A stretch of 64,000 nucleotides of DNA from Frankia alni ACN14a (lineage in GTDB: Bacteria > Actinomycetota > Actinomycetes > Frankiales > Frankiaceae). How positions within the stretch are numbered: the first letter of the stretch is position 1; each line of letters starts with the position of its first letter. The notes below the pieces were generated by a model. That model was not told the origin of the DNA. It saw only the letters and a program-made list of their open reading frames with translations, and searched no databases. The stretch lies in the NCBI RefSeq assembly GCF_000058485.1, contig NC_008278.1:4644962-4708961 (forward strand). The letters run 5' to 3'. A program made the translations under genes and the position numbers. Below are positions 36,087 to 47,949 of the stretch, piece by piece.

Positions 36087-39000
36087 ATGCGGCCCGGGGA
36101 ACCGGTGGGCGCACCGCCCGTGCGCGCGGTGGTCCCACCCACCCGGCTGAGCCAGGCGATCGTCCTGCGCGGGGGGCGGCGCGCGCCCTCCCGGGTCCTG
36201 TTCGGACCGCACGAGACCAACCTGGGCCGGGGGCGGGCGTTGTCCGAACGCCATGTCGCCTACTACGAGCGGCGGGCGGCGGGCGGCGCCGGCGTCATCG
36301 TCACCGAGACCGCCTCGGTGACCTCCGACGACTGGCCCTACGAACGGGCCCCCCTTGCCGCCGAGTGCGGGTCCGGCTGGGCGGCTGTGGCCCAGGCGGT
36401 CCGGCCGCACGGGACCGTGCTGCTGGCCGGTCTGGGCCATGCCGGCGGGCAGGGATCGAGCGCATGGTCGCAGCAGCCGCTGTGGGCCCCCTCCCCGGTG
36501 GCCGACGTGGTGAGCCGGGAGGTCCCAGCCGAACTGGACAGCAGCACGATCGCGAGCATCGTCGCGGGCTTCGCCGCCGGGGCCGGCCGGGCGGTGGCGG
36601 CCGGGCTCGACGGAGTGGAGATCGACGCCGGGGTGTTCTCCCTGCTGCGGCAGTTTCACTCGGGGTTGACCAACCGGCGTGGCGACGACTACGGCCGGGA
36701 CCGGCTCCGGCTGACCCGGGAGGTCCTGACGGCGGTCCGCGCGGCCGTCGGCGACACGCCCATCCTCGGCCTGCGGCTGTGCTGCGACGAGCTGGCGCCC
36801 TGGGCGGGCATCACCGCGGACCTGGCGGCCGGCCACGTCGGTGCACTGGCCGACCTTGTGGACCTGCTCGTCGTCGTCCGTGGCGGCCCGTTCGCGACGG
36901 GTGCGTACCGGCCCGATGCGGCCACCCCGCCGGCCTTCAACACCGATCTCGCCCGCCGGATGCGCCGCGCCGCCGCCGGCCGGGTGCCCATCGTCCTGCA
37001 GGGCAGCGTGGTGGACACCGCCGACGCCCAGCAGGCCCTCGACTCCGCGGCCGCCGACGTCGTGGAGATGACGCGCGCGCTCATCGCGGAGCCGGACCTG
37101 GTGGCGCTGGTCCGCGCGGGCCAGGGCCACCGGGTGCGTCCGTGCGTGTTGTGCAATCAGGCGTGCCAGGTCCGGGATGTCCGCAACCCACTGGTGAGCT
37201 GCATCGGCGAACCCGCGAGCGGCCACGAGACCGTCGAGCCCGGGCCCGGCGGACGCGCCGCGACACCGGTGGACGTCCTCGTCGTCGGCGGCGGCCCGGC
37301 CGGGCTGGAGGCTGCACGCGTGCTGGGCGCCCGCGGGCATCGGGTCCGACTCGCCGAACGCGGCGCCCACCTCGGCGGGACGCTGCGGATCGCCGCCCGT
37401 GGGCCCGGGCTCCACCGGCTCGCCGCGCTGGCCGACTGGTGGGCGGCCGAGTGCCGCCGCCTCGGGGTGCGGATCGACCTGGACACCGACATCGGCGTGG
37501 AGGAGATCGACCGGCAGCGGGCGGCCGGCGGCGTGGTGCTGCTCGCCACCGGCTCGGTCCCGGCGCCGCCCACCGCGCGGACCGACCTGCCCGCCCCCGA
37601 CGCCGACGCCACGACAGAGGTCCTCGACGTGGTCCACGTCCTGGCGGCGGGGCCGGCGGCCCTGCCGCAGGGGCCGGTGGTCGTGCATGACCCGCTCGGG
37701 GGTCCCGTGGGGGTGGCGACCGCGCACTGGCTGGCCGAGCTCGGCCGGCCGGTCACGATCGTGACGCCCGACCCGGTGGTGGGCGCCCGACTGGCCGCCG
37801 GCGATCTCGCGCCGGCGAACGTCCGGCTGGCCCGCGCGGGCGTCCGCCGGCAAGTGCGGACGTCGGTGCGCGCGATCGGTCCGGACGGGCTGGTACTGGA
37901 GGACGCCTGGACGGGCGAGCGGCAGATCCTCGCCTGCGCCGCGGTCGTCGACTGCGGTCCCCGGCTGCCGCGGGACACCCTGCACTCCCTCCGCCCGGAC
38001 CTGCCCCGGGCGGGGGACGCGATCGCGCCGCGGACCATCCTGGCGGCCGTCCTCGAGGGCCGTCGCCGAGCACGGGAGATCGGCGCCGACCGGCCCGACT
38101 CCCCCCGACCGGACCATGACCTCCCCCGCCCCGGCCGTGTTCGACCCCCCCGGTCGGATGATGCCCCGGGCGGGCCGACGGGGCCGCAGGGGCCGCAGAC
38201 GTCGGGCGGGCCCCGGAGGCCGCAGGGGCCGCACAGGGGTGGGGCTGCGGGGTCCGGCGGCGCGGGGGGTGGTGAGGCACCCGGGCTCCTCACCCCGCAG
38301 CGGATCGGGCCGCTGACACTGCACAACCGGATCGTGTTCTGCGCGCACCTGACGAACTACGCCGACGAGGGCCTGCCGAACGTCCGTCACGCCGCCTACT
38401 ACGCCGCCCGGGCAGCCGGCGGAACCGGGATGGTCATCACCGAGGAGCTCACCACCCATCCGGGCGACCGGCCCTACGAGAAGATGATCCGCGGTTTCGA
38501 TCCGGCGGTGATCCCCGGTCTGCGGCGGATCGCCGACGCGGTCCACGCCCACGGGGTACCGATCCTCGCCCAGCTCAATCACAACGGCGGGCAGTCCGCC
38601 TCGACCTACACCCGGCTGCCCGTCTGGGCGCCGAGCGCGGTGGCGGACCCGATGTTCCGCGAGGTGCCCAAGGCGCTGACGGAGTCGGAGATCGCCGAGG
38701 TGGTCGCCGGTTTCGCGCGCACGGCCGCACACGCCGCGGCGGGCGGGTTCGACGGCGTCGAGATACAGGGCTCGCACAGCTCCCTCATCCGCGGGTTCCT
38801 GGCGCCGGCGACGAACCGGCGCACCGACCACTACGGCGGCCCGCTCGCGAACAGGGCCCGACTGCTGCTGGAGGTCATCGAGGCGGTGCGGACCGCGATC
38901 GGCCCCGGCCGGGTCCTCGGCGTACGGCTGTGCGGAGACGACGGGGTCGAGGGGGGCATCACCCTCGCCGAGGCGGTCGCCGTCGCGACGATGGTCGAGG

Positions 39001-40391
39001 CCACCGGCGCGGTCGACTACCTCAACACGGCCATCGGGGTGGCGACCTCGACGCTGCCCCTGATCGTGCCGAGCATGCAGGTCCGCCCGGGCTACGCGGC
39101 GCACATCGCCGCGGCGATCCGGGCGGCGGTCGACCTGCCGGTCGTCGCCGTCGGCCGGTTCACCGACCCGGCGCAGGCCGAGCGGGTCCTGGCCGCCGGC
39201 CAGGCCGATCTCGTCGGGGTCGTCCGCGGTCAGATCGCCGACCCCGCCTTCGCCGCGACGGCCCGGGCAGGGGGGCGCGGCCGGAGTGGACGCGGCGACG
39301 ACGGCCGAGACCAGGACCACCGGCACCAGGAGGACCACCGGGAGCGGGACGACCGGTCTGGCGGCGGCACCTGCGTGGCCTGCAACCAGGAGTGTGTGGG
39401 CCGGACGGGGCGCAATCGCTGGCTGGGCTGCCTGGCCAACCCCCGGGCAGGCCGGGAGGCGGTGACGCTGGCGCCACCGCGTCGGCGCGGACGGCGGGTG
39501 TACGTCGTGGGGGGCGGCCCCGGGGGTCTGCGGGCCGCTGTCACCGCGGCCGCGCGCGGGCACCGCGTCACCGTGGTCGAGCGTGGCGATCGGCTTGGCG
39601 GCCAGATGCTCCTCGCCGCTCAGCTGCCCGGCCGCGGCGGGCTGCGCGCTCTGGTCGACGACCTCGCCGTCCGCCTTGGCGGGCTCGGCGTCGAGGTGCT
39701 GCTGGGTACCGTCGCCGACACCGATCTCCTGCACGCCGCCGGCCCCGACGCCGTCATCCTCGCCACCGGATCCCGACCGGCCCGGCCCGACTGGGCGGGT
39801 GACGATCCACGGATCGTCGGCGTGCGAGAGGTGCTGACCGGCCAGGCCCACCCGCGCGGGCGGGTGCTCGTGGTGGACAGCACGGGTTTCCACCAGGCCC
39901 CGTCGATGGCGGAGCTGCTCGCCGCCCGCGGCGCCGATGTGACGGTGATCAGCGACGCGATGGTCGTCGGCCAGGATCTCGGCCTCACCCTGGACCTGGA
40001 GCGGTGGAACCGACGAGCGGCCGCCCTCGGTGTCCGGCAGGCCGGCGACCTCGTGGTGACGGATGTCGGCGACGCCGGTCCCGCTCCGGCGGGATCCGCT
40101 CCGTGCGGTCCGCCCGACGCGTCCCGCCGCTCCGGTCGGGTGGGCCAGGCCGGTCGCGCGGACCATGCCGGCGAGCTGACGGTGAGCGTCACGCACCATC
40201 CCACCGGGGCGGTGCGGCGCCACGCGGTGGACTGGGTCGTCCATACCGAACCCCCCCGAGCGGAGGACTCGCTGTGGTCCACGCTCCGGGTGAATGCCCC
40301 GTTCGAGCTACACCGGGTCGGCGACTGCCTGGCCCCACGGCGCGCGCACGCCGCCATCCTCGAGGGTGACCGGGTGGCCCTCCTCCTTTGA
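36087..40391 (+). CDS. fused mycofactocin-associated FadH/OYE oxidoreductases 1 and 2
   Basis: A 1434-residue protein made of two complete FadH-type flavoenzymes in tandem. Each half has an old-yellow-enzyme FMN barrel, a 4Fe-4S Cys cluster and a FAD/NAD(P) domain. Half 1 (about 1-700) has the Cys set CVLCNQAC near 352 and VLVVGGGPAGLEAAR near 400. Half 2 (about 730-1434) starts LLTPQRIGPLTLHNRIVF, has CVACNQECVGRTGRNRWLGC near 1097 and VYVVGGGPGGLRAAV near 1139. The halves match the two OYE families normally encoded as separate genes beside mycofactocin genes. They reduce enals or enoates with NAD(P)H electrons. A Pro/Gly-rich linker (about 670-730) joins them. GAGGAG precedes the ATG. Confidence 0.9.
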   Translation: MRPGEPVGAPPVRAVVPPTRLSQAIVLRGGRRAPSRVLFGPHETNLGRGRALSERHVAYYERRAAGGAGVIVTETASVTSDDWPYERAPLAAECGSGWAAVAQAVRPHGTVLLAGLGHAGGQGSSAWSQQPLWAPSPVADVVSREVPAELDSSTIASIVAGFAAGAGRAVAAGLDGVEIDAGVFSLLRQFHSGLTNRRGDDYGRDRLRLTREVLTAVRAAVGDTPILGLRLCCDELAPWAGITADLAAGHVGALADLVDLLVVVRGGPFATGAYRPDAATPPAFNTDLARRMRRAAAGRVPIVLQGSVVDTADAQQALDSAAADVVEMTRALIAEPDLVALVRAGQGHRVRPCVLCNQACQVRDVRNPLVSCIGEPASGHETVEPGPGGRAATPVDVLVVGGGPAGLEAARVLGARGHRVRLAERGAHLGGTLRIAARGPGLHRLAALADWWAAECRRLGVRIDLDTDIGVEEIDRQRAAGGVVLLATGSVPAPPTARTDLPAPDADATTEVLDVVHVLAAGPAALPQGPVVVHDPLGGPVGVATAHWLAELGRPVTIVTPDPVVGARLAAGDLAPANVRLARAGVRRQVRTSVRAIGPDGLVLEDAWTGERQILACAAVVDCGPRLPRDTLHSLRPDLPRAGDAIAPRTILAAVLEGRRRAREIGADRPDSPRPDHDLPRPGRVRPPRSDDAPGGPTGPQGPQTSGGPRRPQGPHRGGAAGSGGAGGGEAPGLLTPQRIGPLTLHNRIVFCAHLTNYADEGLPNVRHAAYYAARAAGGTGMVITEELTTHPGDRPYEKMIRGFDPAVIPGLRRIADAVHAHGVPILAQLNHNGGQSASTYTRLPVWAPSAVADPMFREVPKALTESEIAEVVAGFARTAAHAAAGGFDGVEIQGSHSSLIRGFLAPATNRRTDHYGGPLANRARLLLEVIEAVRTAIGPGRVLGVRLCGDDGVEGGITLAEAVAVATMVEATGAVDYLNTAIGVATSTLPLIVPSMQVRPGYAAHIAAAIRAAVDLPVVAVGRFTDPAQAERVLAAGQADLVGVVRGQIADPAFAATARAGGRGRSGRGDDGRDQDHRHQEDHRERDDRSGGGTCVACNQECVGRTGRNRWLGCLANPRAGREAVTLAPPRRRGRRVYVVGGGPGGLRAAVTAAARGHRVTVVERGDRLGGQMLLAAQLPGRGGLRALVDDLAVRLGGLGVEVLLGTVADTDLLHAAGPDAVILATGSRPARPDWAGDDPRIVGVREVLTGQAHPRGRVLVVDSTGFHQAPSMAELLAARGADVTVISDAMVVGQDLGLTLDLERWNRRAAALGVRQAGDLVVTDVGDAGPAPAGSAPCGPPDASRRSGRVGQAGRADHAGELTVSVTHHPTGAVRRHAVDWVVHTEPPRAEDSLWSTLRVNAPFELHRVGDCLAPRRAHAAILEGDRVALLL

Positions 40392-40450: not shown

Positions 40451-41764
40451 TCATCGAGCCGCCCGCTCGGACAACTCGGCCTGCTCGGGCTGCTCAGCCC
40501 GCTCGGGCTGCTCGGCACGCGTCGCTACGGGTTCGCCCCGACGGCGGGCCAGGCACCAGCGGCCGCCCGAGTTCAGGCCGCGCAGAGCCCGGCGGACCGC
40601 CGGGACCTGGGTGGCACGGTGCACCCGGTAACGCCACGGCGGCTGCGGACCGTGACGCCCGGCCATCGCGTAGGCGAACGACACCGCGTCCAGGTGGCCG
40701 TCCCGGCCGCCCACCTCGTTGCTCTGCGCGTCGCCGTCCCGGCCGAGGTGGCGGTCCGCCTGCTCGAACCAGGTCATGCTGGTCCGCGCCGCCGCCTGCA
40801 CCGGGCGCAGCGCCAGCCGACCGCGGGCGTCGAAGGACCGCAGTGCGGCGGTCAGGTCGTCATCGTTGTCGTCGAGGATCCGCGCGAGCATGACCGCGTC
40901 GACGATCGCCAACGCCGTCCCGGATCCCAGGGTGAAGTGGGTCGTATGGGCGGCGTCCCCGAGCAGCACGACGTTGTCGTGGTACCACCGCTCGTTGCTG
41001 ATCTCGGAGAAGCGCTGCCAGCGGGCGGTCCGACCGCGGCACTGACTGATCAGGCCGTGGCCGTCCAACGGCTCGGCGAAGATCTTCTCCAGCTCTCGCA
41101 GGGTGTCGGCGTCGCCACGCCGGTCGAAGCCGAGCCCCGCCCAGGTCCGCGGGGTGCACTCGACGATGCACGTGCTCAGGCCCGCGCTGGACGGGTAGGC
41201 GTGGCACCAGATCCAGCCCGCCGGGGTGCGTTCGAAGTCGAAGGCGAAGGTGTCGAAGAACCGGTCCGTCCCCAGCCAGATGTAGGGATTGCTGCCGGTC
41301 GTGAGGCGGGTCCCGAACGGGTTTCCACCGGCCTGGCGCACCCGGCTGTTGGCGCCGTCGGCGGCCACGACCAGGTCGGCGTCGGCGAACGGAGGCAGAC
41401 CGTCGACCTCGTGGCGGTAGGAGATCCTCACCCCGAGTTCGGCCGCGCGCCGCGCGAGGATGTCCAGCAGCGTCGCCCGCTGCATGCTGAAGCCGTATCC
41501 GGCCAGGTAGGCCGCGCCCGCCCCCGCGACGCTGATGCGCTGCTCCTGCCAGAGAGTGGACTGCGCCCGGATCTGCCGCGCGCTGCGCGGATCGTTGCGG
41601 AAGAAGACGTCCAGCAGGTTGTCCCAGTAGACGACCCCCCAGCCGTAGGTGGCTCCCGGGGGGTCTCGTTCGATCACCGTGACCTCGTGTGCGGGATTGC
41701 GCAGCTTCGTCGAGATGGCGAAGTACAACCCCGCCGGTCCACCACCCACGCACACGACGCGCAT
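40451..41764 (-). CDS. FAD-dependent aromatic monooxygenase, VioD / anthraniloyl-CoA monooxygenase-like
   Basis: A 437-residue PHBH-type flavoprotein hydroxylase. It has the FAD dinucleotide motif VCVGGGPAGLYFA at residues 4-16, the DG motif VVAADGANSRVR and the GD motif VVLLGDAAHTTHFTLGSGTA. Segments such as GWGVVYWD, NPYIWLGTDRFFDTFAF and LSTCIVECTPRTW are shared with VioD (hydroxylates the indole ring in violacein synthesis) and with the N-terminal half of anthraniloyl-CoA monooxygenase. Aromatic or indole hydroxylation is therefore likely; the real substrate is open. The ATG has GGGAGG 7 bases upstream. It lies 231 bases after a Gly/Trp-rich peptide gene on the same strand and converges on an OYE gene. 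Confidence 0.82.
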   Translation of the reverse strand: MRVVCVGGGPAGLYFAISTKLRNPAHEVTVIERDPPGATYGWGVVYWDNLLDVFFRNDPRSARQIRAQSTLWQEQRISVAGAGAAYLAGYGFSMQRATLLDILARRAAELGVRISYRHEVDGLPPFADADLVVAADGANSRVRQAGGNPFGTRLTTGSNPYIWLGTDRFFDTFAFDFERTPAGWIWCHAYPSSAGLSTCIVECTPRTWAGLGFDRRGDADTLRELEKIFAEPLDGHGLISQCRGRTARWQRFSEISNERWYHDNVVLLGDAAHTTHFTLGSGTALAIVDAVMLARILDDNDDDLTAALRSFDARGRLALRPVQAAARTSMTWFEQADRHLGRDGDAQSNEVGGRDGHLDAVSFAYAMAGRHGPQPPWRYRVHRATQVPAVRRALRGLNSGGRWCLARRRGEPVATRAEQPERAEQPEQAELSERAAR

Positions 41765-41995
41765 ACCAGATCCTCCCGATCCGCACCCGCCTGGTCAGCG
41801 GTGCCCTACCGCGGCCCGAAAACGACGACATGGCGGCGGCCGACCGCTACGGCCGGTCCGTCGCCACCTCGTCCCCGGATGAACAGAACACTCGTGGTGG
41901 GTGTCGTGACAGTTGGTTGGAACGTTGGGCCGGACTTCTGACGACGGCCTGGCCAGCCGCTGGGCTGGCGCAGGTCGCCGCAGGTCGCCTCGGGG

Positions 41996-42205
41996 CTACC
42001 AGCCCCAGCCGCCGCCCCAACCACCCCAGCCGCCCCAGCCGCCTCCGCGGCCCCAGCGGCTCCAACCCCAGCCACCCCAACCACCCCAGCCGCTCCAGCC
42101 ACCCCAGCCGCCGCCCCAGCCGCCGACGAAGAAGCCGACGAAACCGGTCGCCTGCCGGAACGATCCCTGAGCCTGAAGGGCTGGTGCCTCATATGTTGCC
42201 TTCAT
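41996..42205 (-). CDS. RiPP-like precursor: lasso-type leader with Gly/Trp-repeat core
   Basis: A 69-residue peptide. Residues 1-21 (MKATYEAPALQAQGSFRQAT then G) contain the actinobacterial lasso-peptide leader pattern Y5-x2-P8-x-L10-x3-G14-x-F16-x3-T20. The rest, from GFVGFFVGG onward, is built of WGG, WGGG and WSGW units: 13 Trp in the last 40 residues, ending GGGWGW. It has only two Arg and no Asp, Glu, Cys or Lys. A lasso ring needs Asp or Glu at core position 7-9, so this core cannot form one. The ATG follows GGGGGGAA. No lasso cyclase, leader peptidase or RRE gene is in the window. The flavin monooxygenase gene downstream is the only enzyme candidate. Confidence 0.75.
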   Translation of the reverse strand: MKATYEAPALQAQGSFRQATGFVGFFVGGWGGGWGGWSGWGGWGGWGWSRWGRGGGWGGWGGWGGGWGW

Positions 42206-42530
42206 GCCGGGTTCCCCCCGTCTGCACTCGGATACCTTCTCCTGGGCATGCCCGGCCCTTGGTGTTCCTCGTTCAAGGCCGGATACACGACCTTCGACCG
42301 AGCAAATTCCATTCTGCTTCCTGCGGGTACATTGAGGGTTCACCCACGGTCCGTTGCAGCCGGTCGCAACGGCGTCCGCGGGTCTCTGCCGCCAGCGCCG
42401 GGGATCACCGCTGGTCGCGAGTCGCCGAGGAGAGACAATTCGCTCTATGGCGCTGTATGGCGACAAAGCCAGCGGAATTCGTCGACGCGCCGGGCTCCGG
42501 GACTGCACCCGGCCTGGTCCGAGCGGAGCG
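42206..42530. other. divergent region upstream of the Gly/Trp peptide gene
   Basis: 325 bases between the minus-strand peptide gene and the plus-strand hydrolase fragment. It is AT-richer than average around 42300-42340 (AGCAAATTCCATTCTG), so it is the likely promoter region of the peptide. No gene is supported. Confidence 0.5.
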
Positions 42531-45831: not shown

Positions 45832-47949
45832 TTGATTGTCGACCGTGGCCAGGTTGCCGCAGCGCTTCCTGGCTACCTGATTGGCGCGAAACTGGGCGCG
45901 GGTGCGGGCGGACTGGTGCTCACCGGCCGGCACCGTCGGCTGAAGCGTCCGGTGGCCATTAAAATTCTTCCCGGGGGTTCGGAGTACGCGCCGGGGAGTT
46001 TCGAGACCGAGGCGCGCCTGCTCGCAGGGATGGATCATCCGCATATCGTGCGGGTCTTCGACTATGTGGAAGCCGACGATCTCCTGCTGATCGTCATGGA
46101 ACTGTTGGACGGCGGTACGTTGACCCGTCGACGTGCCACGCTGGATCCGCAGGGAGCCTGCGCGGTCGGGTTAGCTGTTGCCGCGGGGCTTTCTCACGCC
46201 CATATCCGTGGGGTGCTGCACCTGGACATCAAGCCCGGCAACCTGCTGTTCGACGCGGCCGGAACACTGAAGGTCGCCGACTTCGGCATCGCGAAGATGT
46301 TCGAGGGAACCGCGGTCACAGCGACCGCGGTGGCCGGCACACCGTCCTACATGGCGCCCGAACAGATCACCGGCGGTCGACTGAGCCCGGCCACGGACCT
46401 CTACGCCCTCGGCGTCGTGATCTACCAGCTTCTGACCGGCGCACTCCCCTTCGACCCGACCCTGCCCGTCCGCGCGCTCTTCCAGCAGCACCTCACGGCC
46501 GCACCACCGCCGCTGACCGGCGTGCCCGCCCCCATCGCGCAGGTCGTCCTGCGGGCGTTGGCCAAGGACCCGACCGACCGCCAGCCCACGGCACAGGCCT
46601 TCGCCCTCGACCTCGCCAGGGCCGCCACCGCCATCCATGGCGCCGGCTGGACGAGCCGCGTCTGGCTCCCCCTGCATCTCGACGACCTGGTGAGCAACGC
46701 CGCCGACCAACCACCCGAGCCGGCCTCCCTGCCACCGCCGCCACCGCTGGCCACCCAGCCGAGCGCTCCGGGGGCAAGCACTCCCCGTCCCGACGCTCCC
46801 TCGTCCCGCAATCCCGATCCTGGCGGACGGACCAATCCGCGGTCACGGCGACGGCGCATCACGATCGCGCTCGCCGTGGCCTTGGCCGTCGCGATTCCCA
46901 CCGTGCTCGTCGTCCTGCTGAACCGGCCCGACCCCGCCCCCGAGTCCGTCCGCCCGACCCTCGTGGCCATTCTGCCTGAGCCTGCGGCCACGCCGCGGGC
47001 CGAAAGCTTCTCCGCCGACGGCCACACCCTCGTCGTCACCACCGACTCCACCGTGCGGATGTGGAATATCACCGATCCGGCGAATGCCTCGTTCCTCGGC
47101 GGTTTCCGTGATTTCGCAAAGTCGGTCGGACGGGTGTCGATCCTTTCTCCCGACGGTCGCATCCTGGCTCATTCCGGCGTTACCACCGACGGCCAGCGAG
47201 CGATATTTCTATGGGACGTCACCCGCCCGGGAAGTCCGGTCAGCATCCAAACCGATACCTTCACCGGAGAATCGGGCGGAGACAACGGGAAGTTCGTCAG
47301 GGGGATGGCCTTTTCTCCCGACGGCCTCCGTCTGGTCGCCGTCGGCGGCAACGAGATAATGTCCTGGGACCTCGCCCATCCCACCTACTCGCCTTCCGAT
47401 GCGACCATTAGCACCGGGGCCGCCGCCGCAAACCTCCATGAAAGCATCGCCGTGGGGCTCTCCGCCGACGGCCGCAACGCCGCCACCGCGGACCTCGACA
47501 ACCAGGCAACGGTGCGGATATGGGATACTCAGCACATGGAGCACCTCGTCAACACCGTCACCTTTCCCACCAGGGGCGGTAAGGCGCGGTCGGTCCTGTT
47601 CCTCGACACCGACACGGTCGTCGTCACAGACGACGTCGGCACGGTGACCCTCTGGGATACCGCCGATCGGGCGAACCCAGCCACCATCGCCTTTCCCGAC
47701 GGCGGGACCGGCCCGGTGGACGAGGTCCTGCTCTCCTTCGACCGCCATACCCTCGTCACGTTCGCCTGGGGCCGGGGAGAGATCCAGCGGTGGGACGTAT
47801 CCGATAGGTTGCATCCCCATCGCACCGCCACGTTGCGCTCCGACATCGGGGCGGTGTCGCCAAAAACGATGGCGATCTCCACCGATGGTCGGCTCTTTTC
47901 TGCTGTTGATCCCGGGAAAGATGCCGTGAACCTGTGGACGCCGGGGTGA
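45832..47949 (+). CDS. receptor Ser/Thr protein kinase with WD40-like extracellular repeats
   Basis: A 705-residue PknB-type kinase. Kinase motifs: IGAKLGAGAGGLVLTG (Gly loop), AIKIL (Lys), the catalytic loop HLDIKPGNLLF (HRD replaced by HLD) and VADFGIAKMF, then TPSYMAPEQI. A Pro-rich linker leads to one membrane span near residue 345 (TIALAVALAVAIPTVLVVLL). The outer part, about 380-705, has at least five WD40-like repeats (VRMWNIT, IFLWDVT, IMSWDLA, VRIWDTQ, VTLWDTA). It should sense something outside and phosphorylate cytoplasmic targets. The start is assigned to TTG 45832, which has no clear ribosome site. Its codon use is less GC-extreme than its neighbours. Confidence 0.9.
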   Translation: MIVDRGQVAAALPGYLIGAKLGAGAGGLVLTGRHRRLKRPVAIKILPGGSEYAPGSFETEARLLAGMDHPHIVRVFDYVEADDLLLIVMELLDGGTLTRRRATLDPQGACAVGLAVAAGLSHAHIRGVLHLDIKPGNLLFDAAGTLKVADFGIAKMFEGTAVTATAVAGTPSYMAPEQITGGRLSPATDLYALGVVIYQLLTGALPFDPTLPVRALFQQHLTAAPPPLTGVPAPIAQVVLRALAKDPTDRQPTAQAFALDLARAATAIHGAGWTSRVWLPLHLDDLVSNAADQPPEPASLPPPPPLATQPSAPGASTPRPDAPSSRNPDPGGRTNPRSRRRRITIALAVALAVAIPTVLVVLLNRPDPAPESVRPTLVAILPEPAATPRAESFSADGHTLVVTTDSTVRMWNITDPANASFLGGFRDFAKSVGRVSILSPDGRILAHSGVTTDGQRAIFLWDVTRPGSPVSIQTDTFTGESGGDNGKFVRGMAFSPDGLRLVAVGGNEIMSWDLAHPTYSPSDATISTGAAAANLHESIAVGLSADGRNAATADLDNQATVRIWDTQHMEHLVNTVTFPTRGGKARSVLFLDTDTVVVTDDVGTVTLWDTADRANPATIAFPDGGTGPVDEVLLSFDRHTLVTFAWGRGEIQRWDVSDRLHPHRTATLRSDIGAVSPKTMAISTDGRLFSAVDPGKDAVNLWTPG

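Follow-up and report, generated by a model that had tools for sequence, protein, structure and literature searches.

The W/G precursor gene and its surroundings

We analyzed a 64,000-nucleotide stretch of the Frankia alni ACN14a chromosome (NC_008278.1, positions 4,644,962 to 4,708,961; hereafter, the window) around a short minus-strand gene whose product joins a lasso-type leader to a tail made mostly of Gly and Trp (W/G; Table 1). The translation of 42205-41996 on the minus strand is MKATYEAPALQAQGSFRQATGFVGFFVGGWGGGWGGWSGWGGWGGWGWSRWGRGGGWGGWGGWGGGWGW. Its leader reads Y5-x2-P8-x-L10-x3-G14-x-F16-x3-T20, the full pattern that a first-pass annotation had picked out, and Y5, P8, G14, F16, and T20 are invariant among 23 aligned sequences. 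The precursor matched PF19397/DUF5972 with 29.8 bits (curated cut-off, 22.6) and NF033521 narrowly, with 19.6 bits (cut-off, 19). From residue 22 onward, the 48 residues comprise 26 Gly, 13 Trp, 3 Phe, 2 Val, 2 Ser, and 2 Arg; the last 40 residues of the precursor hold 13 Trp, as had been counted before. Asp and Glu are absent from this 48-residue tail, as stated earlier, and the sole Glu of the peptide (E6) lies in the leader. In a composition scan, the tail was the only W/G-rich stretch in the window. Lasso leaders carry Thr at the penultimate position (PMC10368454), a rule by which the precursor would be cut after residue 21.

The G-run lies 8 bases before the ATG and recurs in near relatives, which agrees with the strong ribosome site called previously. 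A simple scan for sigma-70-type promoters found none for the precursor, and the RNA fold z-score of the gap between the precursor and the next gene was −1.78. Elsewhere in the window, one ORF (36087-40391) carries the mycofactocin-system OYE oxidoreductase models TIGR03996 and TIGR03997 in tandem, that is, a fusion, and another (45832-47949) encodes a Ser/Thr kinase with WD40/beta-propeller matches, mostly weak, in its C-terminal region.

Table 1. Features of the W/G locus in window coordinates.
Feature	Position	Strand	Description and basis
W/G peptide precursor gene	41996..42205	minus	69 aa and stop; translation, PF19397 and NF033521 above cut-off, conservation in the family, leader substitution pattern pointing to purifying selection
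Lasso-type leader, residues 1-20 (MKATYEAPALQAQGSFRQAT)	42146..42205	minus	motif read directly
Short hydrophobic linker, residues 21-27 (GFVGFFV)	42125..42145	minus	hydrophobic in many, not all, homologs
W/G repeat tail, residues 28-69	41999..42124	minus	13 Trp, Asp/Glu absent
G-run, probable ribosome site	42214..42219	minus	sequence; similar in near relatives
231-nt gap, precursor to monooxygenase	41765..41995	minus	no terminator-like site by simple pattern scan
Class A FAD monooxygenase, 437 aa, proposed modifying enzyme	40451..41764	minus	NCBIfam/Pfam, PDB profile search, fold comparison, W/G linkage

Conservation and selection

A whole-protein search recovered homologs of the precursor in 20 of 97 genomes, corresponding to 20 of 35 Frankiaceae and none of the 62 genomes outside the family. 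This is an undercount: the peptide is present in four more Frankiaceae genomes (G021, G022, G032, and G033), and the question of homologs in related strains, raised in the first-pass annotation, is answered by clear conservation. The homologous ORFs that were read, unless cut by a contig end, combine the leader pattern with a Gly-rich aromatic tail, mostly W/G, of variable arrangement. Among 26 different leader copies, the differences per site at the first, second, and third codon positions were 0.21, 0.19, and 0.47, the third being about twice the first and second, and the leader dN/dS was approximately 0.20 over the 100 closest pairs, a value that is only indicative as these pairs are related and non-independent. 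Judged by these substitution patterns, the leader is under purifying selection. Because this selection falls in the minus-strand frame, we rejected both a chance ORF at 42205-41996 and the reading in which a Pro/Gln-rich ORF on the plus strand is the real gene.

Copies of the W/G tail in the same genome were sought with a DNA pattern for WGGWGGW, which occurs at four sites in the 7.5 Mb: two within the precursor gene and the other two within a single paralog located at 0.29 Mb. This paralog (L021:9967-10155) has a His/Arg-rich middle and lies between genes for an RPE65-type oxygenase and SurE, with no adjoining monooxygenase. In several genomes (loci L043, L048, L273, L274, and L275), two lasso-leader W/G precursors with differing tails occur near one monooxygenase.

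The adjoining flavin monooxygenase

The gene directly downstream of the precursor, on the same strand, encodes a monooxygenase. The first-pass annotation had given no strand, had not seen this gene, which is the strongest clue at the locus, and had not foreseen the Sec- and ABC-associated versions of the peptide described below. A profile search of the PDB returned VioD as the best match (E = 1.9e-54), and VioD occupied Foldseek ranks 1-4. The AF2 model (pLDDT 85.3, pTM 0.85) aligned with VioD in VIA-align at Z 42.9, with an rmsd of 2.2 over 349 residues, whereas the next family reached Z 33.8. The predicted structure is therefore a near whole-length match to VioD, above other families, as expected of a class A flavin monooxygenase with a VioD-like fold. 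Pfam assigned FAD_binding_3, predicting flavin use, and no TPR.

Despite being the best solved match by both profile and fold, VioD is only 25-29% identical to the enzyme, which is not a VioD equivalog (NF053547, 178.7 bits against a cut-off of 620). VioD, a hydroxylase of the violacein pathway, acts on a small molecule and is not linked to a peptide. The top NCBIfam match was instead NF006101, salicylyl-CoA 5-hydroxylase/oxidoreductase, with 358.9 bits against a cut-off of 1078, so that the enzyme is not a salicylyl-CoA 5-hydroxylase by this model either. Enzyme residues 1-342 align with positions 1-348 of this bifunctional, 768-position model, and the window enzyme thus corresponds to its first (N-terminal) half only. 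With NF006101 and not VioD as the top NCBIfam match, the case for an indole substrate is weaker than the fold ranking implies. By kinship, the enzyme is an aromatic-ring hydroxylase; that its substrate is an indole is a guess, aided by the Trp-rich partner.

Pairing of enzyme and peptide

Within Frankiaceae, the monooxygenase was present in 23 of 35 genomes, and 18 of these 23 have a lasso-leader W/G peptide immediately upstream in the same orientation; close named records are those of Frankia torreyi CpI1 and Frankia sp. QA3. In three further genomes (G002, G008, and G027) a contig end truncates the enzyme locus, G034 retains a W/G-like tail remnant upstream of the enzyme, and G018 has none. 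The genes flanking the pair vary between Frankiaceae groups, so the pairing is not accounted for by mere descent of a single gene block, and no gene besides the precursor and monooxygenase is common to all Frankiaceae loci. W/G precursors without an adjoining monooxygenase were also found: the own-genome paralog (L021) and its kin L025 and L026, as well as L032, L037, L039, L044, and L045. The precursor was present in G001, G006, and G009, where the enzyme was not matched at the thresholds used. At L037:8295-10055 in G025, the gene right after a second W/G precursor encodes a cytochrome P450 (PF00067) in place of the flavoenzyme.

We then examined 80 enzyme loci, some in Frankiaceae genomes, out of 569 confirmed relatives. 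A strict scan, applied to all frames and requiring 40 residues with at least 5 Trp and a Trp+Gly share of at least 55%, yielded 53 stretches in 52 of the 80 loci; they lay upstream on the enzyme strand in 48 loci, and on the opposite strand behind an ABC transporter in four Saccharopolyspora loci. A looser Gly/aromatic rule added eight loci and inspection by eye one more (L141), giving 61 of 80. Three loci (L065, L067, and L132) are cut within 300 bases, and 16 had no W/G stretch in the DNA examined, at least three of them (L105, L110, and L121) ending just short of the site at which their kin have it. The 53 strict stretches all fell within the 477 kb closest to the enzyme, and the remaining 483 kb had none, the border having been drawn once the strict stretches had been seen. 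The scan has some background: across 277 kb of lasso loci it gave a single stretch without evident meaning (L166), and 428 kb of precursor loci likewise gave one (L037).

The lasso-leader pattern screen detected precursors in only 8 of these 80 loci, and the remaining precursors were found by the composition scans. By eye, the W/G peptides of Nocardia and Streptomyces have Sec-like signals. In Saccharopolyspora and Pseudonocardiales the leaders are short (MQIKDTF or MKIKEIF, for example) and an ABC transporter is frequently close by; the three such transporters tested carried PF00664 and PF00005. None of five W/G peptides with these other leaders reached a Pfam or NCBIfam cut-off. The W/G-type peptides range from 42 to about 120 aa, and some Streptomyces tails have less Trp and more Phe, Tyr, His, and Asp. 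Several peptides from outside Frankiaceae end in Cys (L068, L069, L071, L073, L077, L088, L095, and L113). On a quick tree of 87 rows, leader type largely tracked the enzyme, with 14 changes versus 45 after shuffling, and the lasso type was confined to one group of Frankiaceae enzymes (support 99), with G018 outside this group.

A control search covered an even sample of 393 genomes of the class. Strict or loose W/G stretches occurred within 5 kb of none of 22 non-Frankiaceae matches scoring 428-490 bits, which we read as a sister subfamily, and none of 20 lower-scoring paralogs; the latter, nearly all much longer proteins, are a subset, drawn mostly from the upper end, of the matches scoring below 428 bits. 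The notion that this monooxygenase is always W/G-linked was thus rejected. On a tree of 72 chosen rows (40 of the 87 quick-tree rows and 10 of the 20 paralog controls among them), the W/G-linked enzymes and their near kin formed one clade (support 98), apart from 21 of the 22 sisters and the 10 long proteins; the position of L230, a long branch, is unsure. The empty control loci and the separate clade indicate that linkage to W/G peptides characterizes a single enzyme clade and not the enzyme type at large. In 8 of the 22 sister loci (L231, L237, L241, L243, L246, L247, L249, and L250), a gene of one cluster (c5) lies nearby; by eye we take it to resemble a tyrosinase, presumably hinting at aromatic-oxidation or pigment chemistry.

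Lasso leader without a lasso product

The precursor shares with the lasso precursors of PF19397 and NF033521 the leader YxxPxLxxxGxFxxxT, with its YxxPxL start and Thr near the end, and both pattern and family models predict RRE binding; Frankiaceae also has genuine lasso clusters. It differs from them in its long acid-free W/G repeat, its adjoining monooxygenase, and the lack of adjoining lasso genes: B1, B2, and C do not adjoin it, its neighbors being the monooxygenase and an aminotransferase. Lasso cyclization needs Asp or Glu at core position 7-9, and since the 48-residue tail contains neither, we rejected a lasso product from this ORF, as had already been concluded from the sequence. In all 15 PF19397 loci read from other families, by contrast, Asp or Glu stands near positions 8-10 of the would-be core (by eye). 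Since these loci look lasso-like and the same flavoenzyme clade pairs with non-lasso-leader W/G peptides outside Frankiaceae, the leader and tail probably have separate histories, in keeping with the first-pass suggestion of a leader borrowed for another modification.

A search for lasso machinery elsewhere in the genome, proposed at the outset, was productive. The genome contains one PqqD/B1 match and one B2 match, which are neighbors at 5.33 Mb, approximately 0.65 Mb from the precursor, within a locus (L153, 5.324-5.340 Mb) where frames are open for B1, B2, and C-like and ABC-transporter-like proteins. By eye, the lasso precursor expected beside C looks decayed, with only remnant frames left; the only two lasso-leader matches in the genome are both W/G peptides. 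Among 21 Frankiaceae genomes (G000-G020), B2 exceeded the cut-off in 14 of 14 with a lasso-leader W/G peptide versus 3 of 7 without one, kinship being uncorrected. The single B1 and B2, the restriction of leader matches to W/G peptides, and the co-occurrence of B2 together fit a role in trans for B1 and B2 on the W/G leaders. An open frame for the lasso cyclase C is present too, and service of these peptides by B1 and B2 alone does not explain it.

Use in trans has a precedent that makes it plausible, as the actinobacterial RRE FusB1 bound non-cognate precursors (PMC13381572). The same study describes LPP RiPPs of Bacillota, which are non-lasso peptides whose YxxP leader is similar to the RRE motif of lasso systems. 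LPP systems differ from the present locus in having their own RRE and a signal-peptidase-like protease, in phylum, and in leader consensus (YxxPxVLxHQxIxFETxxS), which the W/G leader does not fit when compared by eye; the word flavin is absent from the main text of that paper (PMC13381572).

Proposed system and alternatives

The locus has a RiPP-type layout, namely a short precursor, conserved leader, variable core, and adjoining tailoring-type enzyme. We favor, with modest confidence, a two-gene peptide-modification locus in which the monooxygenase oxidizes tail Trp, lasso B1 and B2 act in trans, and the product is exported. The small gene would supply a precursor of leader and Gly/Trp-repeat tail, and the FAD monooxygenase would oxidize, most simply hydroxylate, the indole rings of tail Trp in the cytoplasm, before leader removal and export. 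Export would proceed through Sec in Nocardia and Streptomyces, and several Pseudonocardiaceae would rely on a dedicated ABC transporter. In Frankiaceae, where a lasso leader precedes the tail, the B1 (RRE) and B2 (peptidase) proteins encoded elsewhere would probably bind and remove that leader.

The main alternative is that the W/G peptide stays unmodified and is secreted as a structural or surface peptide, linked only by co-regulation to a monooxygenase that acts on free indole, an aryl-CoA, or another aromatic compound. VioD, kynurenine hydroxylase, and salicylyl-CoA hydroxylase all use small molecules, and the enzyme-less orphan precursors, the sister subfamily without a W/G peptide, and the free variation of the tail sequence would all suit such a peptide. 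However, the pairing persists across changes of leader, neighbors, and genus within one enzyme clade, and we regard this alternative as rather unlikely.

The enzyme might also act on the peptide in another manner than plain hydroxylation, by indole epoxidation leading to crosslinks or pyrroloindoline, by ring opening, or by quinone formation. Class A flavoenzymes perform several of these reactions. BhaC1, an unrelated flavoenzyme, forms a hydroxyquinone on peptide Trp (PMC9850906). Against this, the nearest known enzymes are ring hydroxylases and no further gene beside the pair is shared by all Frankiaceae loci; such a reaction appears quite unlikely. For the favored Trp oxidation as well, BhaC1/AmmC1 of the PEARL pathway offers a chemical precedent, being an FMN enzyme that oxidizes a peptide Trp (PMC9850906). 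The two would share flavin-dependent oxidation of peptide Trp, and they differ in that BhaC1/AmmC1 contains TPRs and oxidizes only the C-terminal Trp (PMC9850906), whereas the window enzyme has FAD_binding_3 and no TPR match.

A third possibility, close to the decayed precursor considered in the first-pass annotation, is that a lasso precursor lost its ring acid and that the W/G tail grew from the WGWG ring and Gly-rich end of Frankiaceae lasso precursors. The leader matches lasso families, and Frankiaceae does contain lasso precursors with lasso genes next to them: the ring G[RG]WGWG[HR]D occurred in 7 of the 18 B2 loci examined, Gly-rich ends accompany it, and at L157 the B1 and C genes were confirmed by NF033530, PF05402, and PF00733. 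The ring Asp is lost in a lasso precursor of strain QA3 (L160, by eye). At L165:5635-5838, a lasso precursor with the ring GGWGWGHD has a W/G-rich tail that passes the W/G scan, and this precursor may be an intermediate form linking lasso precursors to W/G peptides; the tail may accordingly have grown from a lasso core instead of being grafted, and may share its origin with lasso precursors. As an account of the present gene, however, simple drift conflicts with the long acid-free W/G tail kept in many genomes, the purifying selection indicated for the leader, and the occurrence of W/G tails with the same enzyme clade in the absence of any lasso leader, and we consider it very unlikely.

Finally, a Trp-sensing attenuator (leader peptide) of the monooxygenase gene is hardly credible: it would account for the abundance of Trp codons immediately ahead of an enzyme that may act on indole and for a somewhat structured gap, but not for peptides as long as those described above with a lasso leader or Sec-like signal, selection on leader amino acids, ABC transporter genes lying between peptide and enzyme at some loci, the failure of a simple pattern scan to find a terminator-like site in the gap, or paralogs without the enzyme.

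Implications

A broader form of the favored two-gene system can be outlined, although it is unlikely. Actinobacteria would secrete polypeptides rich in Gly and hydroxy-Trp, a new class of ribosomally made material, with the help of a dedicated flavoenzyme clade, and crosslinking of the oxidized indoles would yield a polymer that is melanin-like, adhesive, or metal-binding. The peptide cargo and its enzyme would be constant, the leader (Sec, short ABC-type, or lasso RRE) would be interchangeable, and Frankiaceae would retain B1 and B2 for processing in trans.

We found no description of a W/G peptide paired with a flavoenzyme in the open-access literature, the body of work covered here as distinct from subscription papers and preprints. 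The recurring pairing looks like an undescribed, RiPP-like family of modified peptides. If so, it would represent a widespread peptide-modification system in which a class A flavin hydroxylase acts on peptides, and would provide a possible enzyme for oxidizing internal Trp residues of peptides. It would also mean that cargo and enzyme remained paired as the leader was swapped among the Sec, ABC, and RRE routes, so that the modularity of RiPP leaders in evolution would become directly testable.
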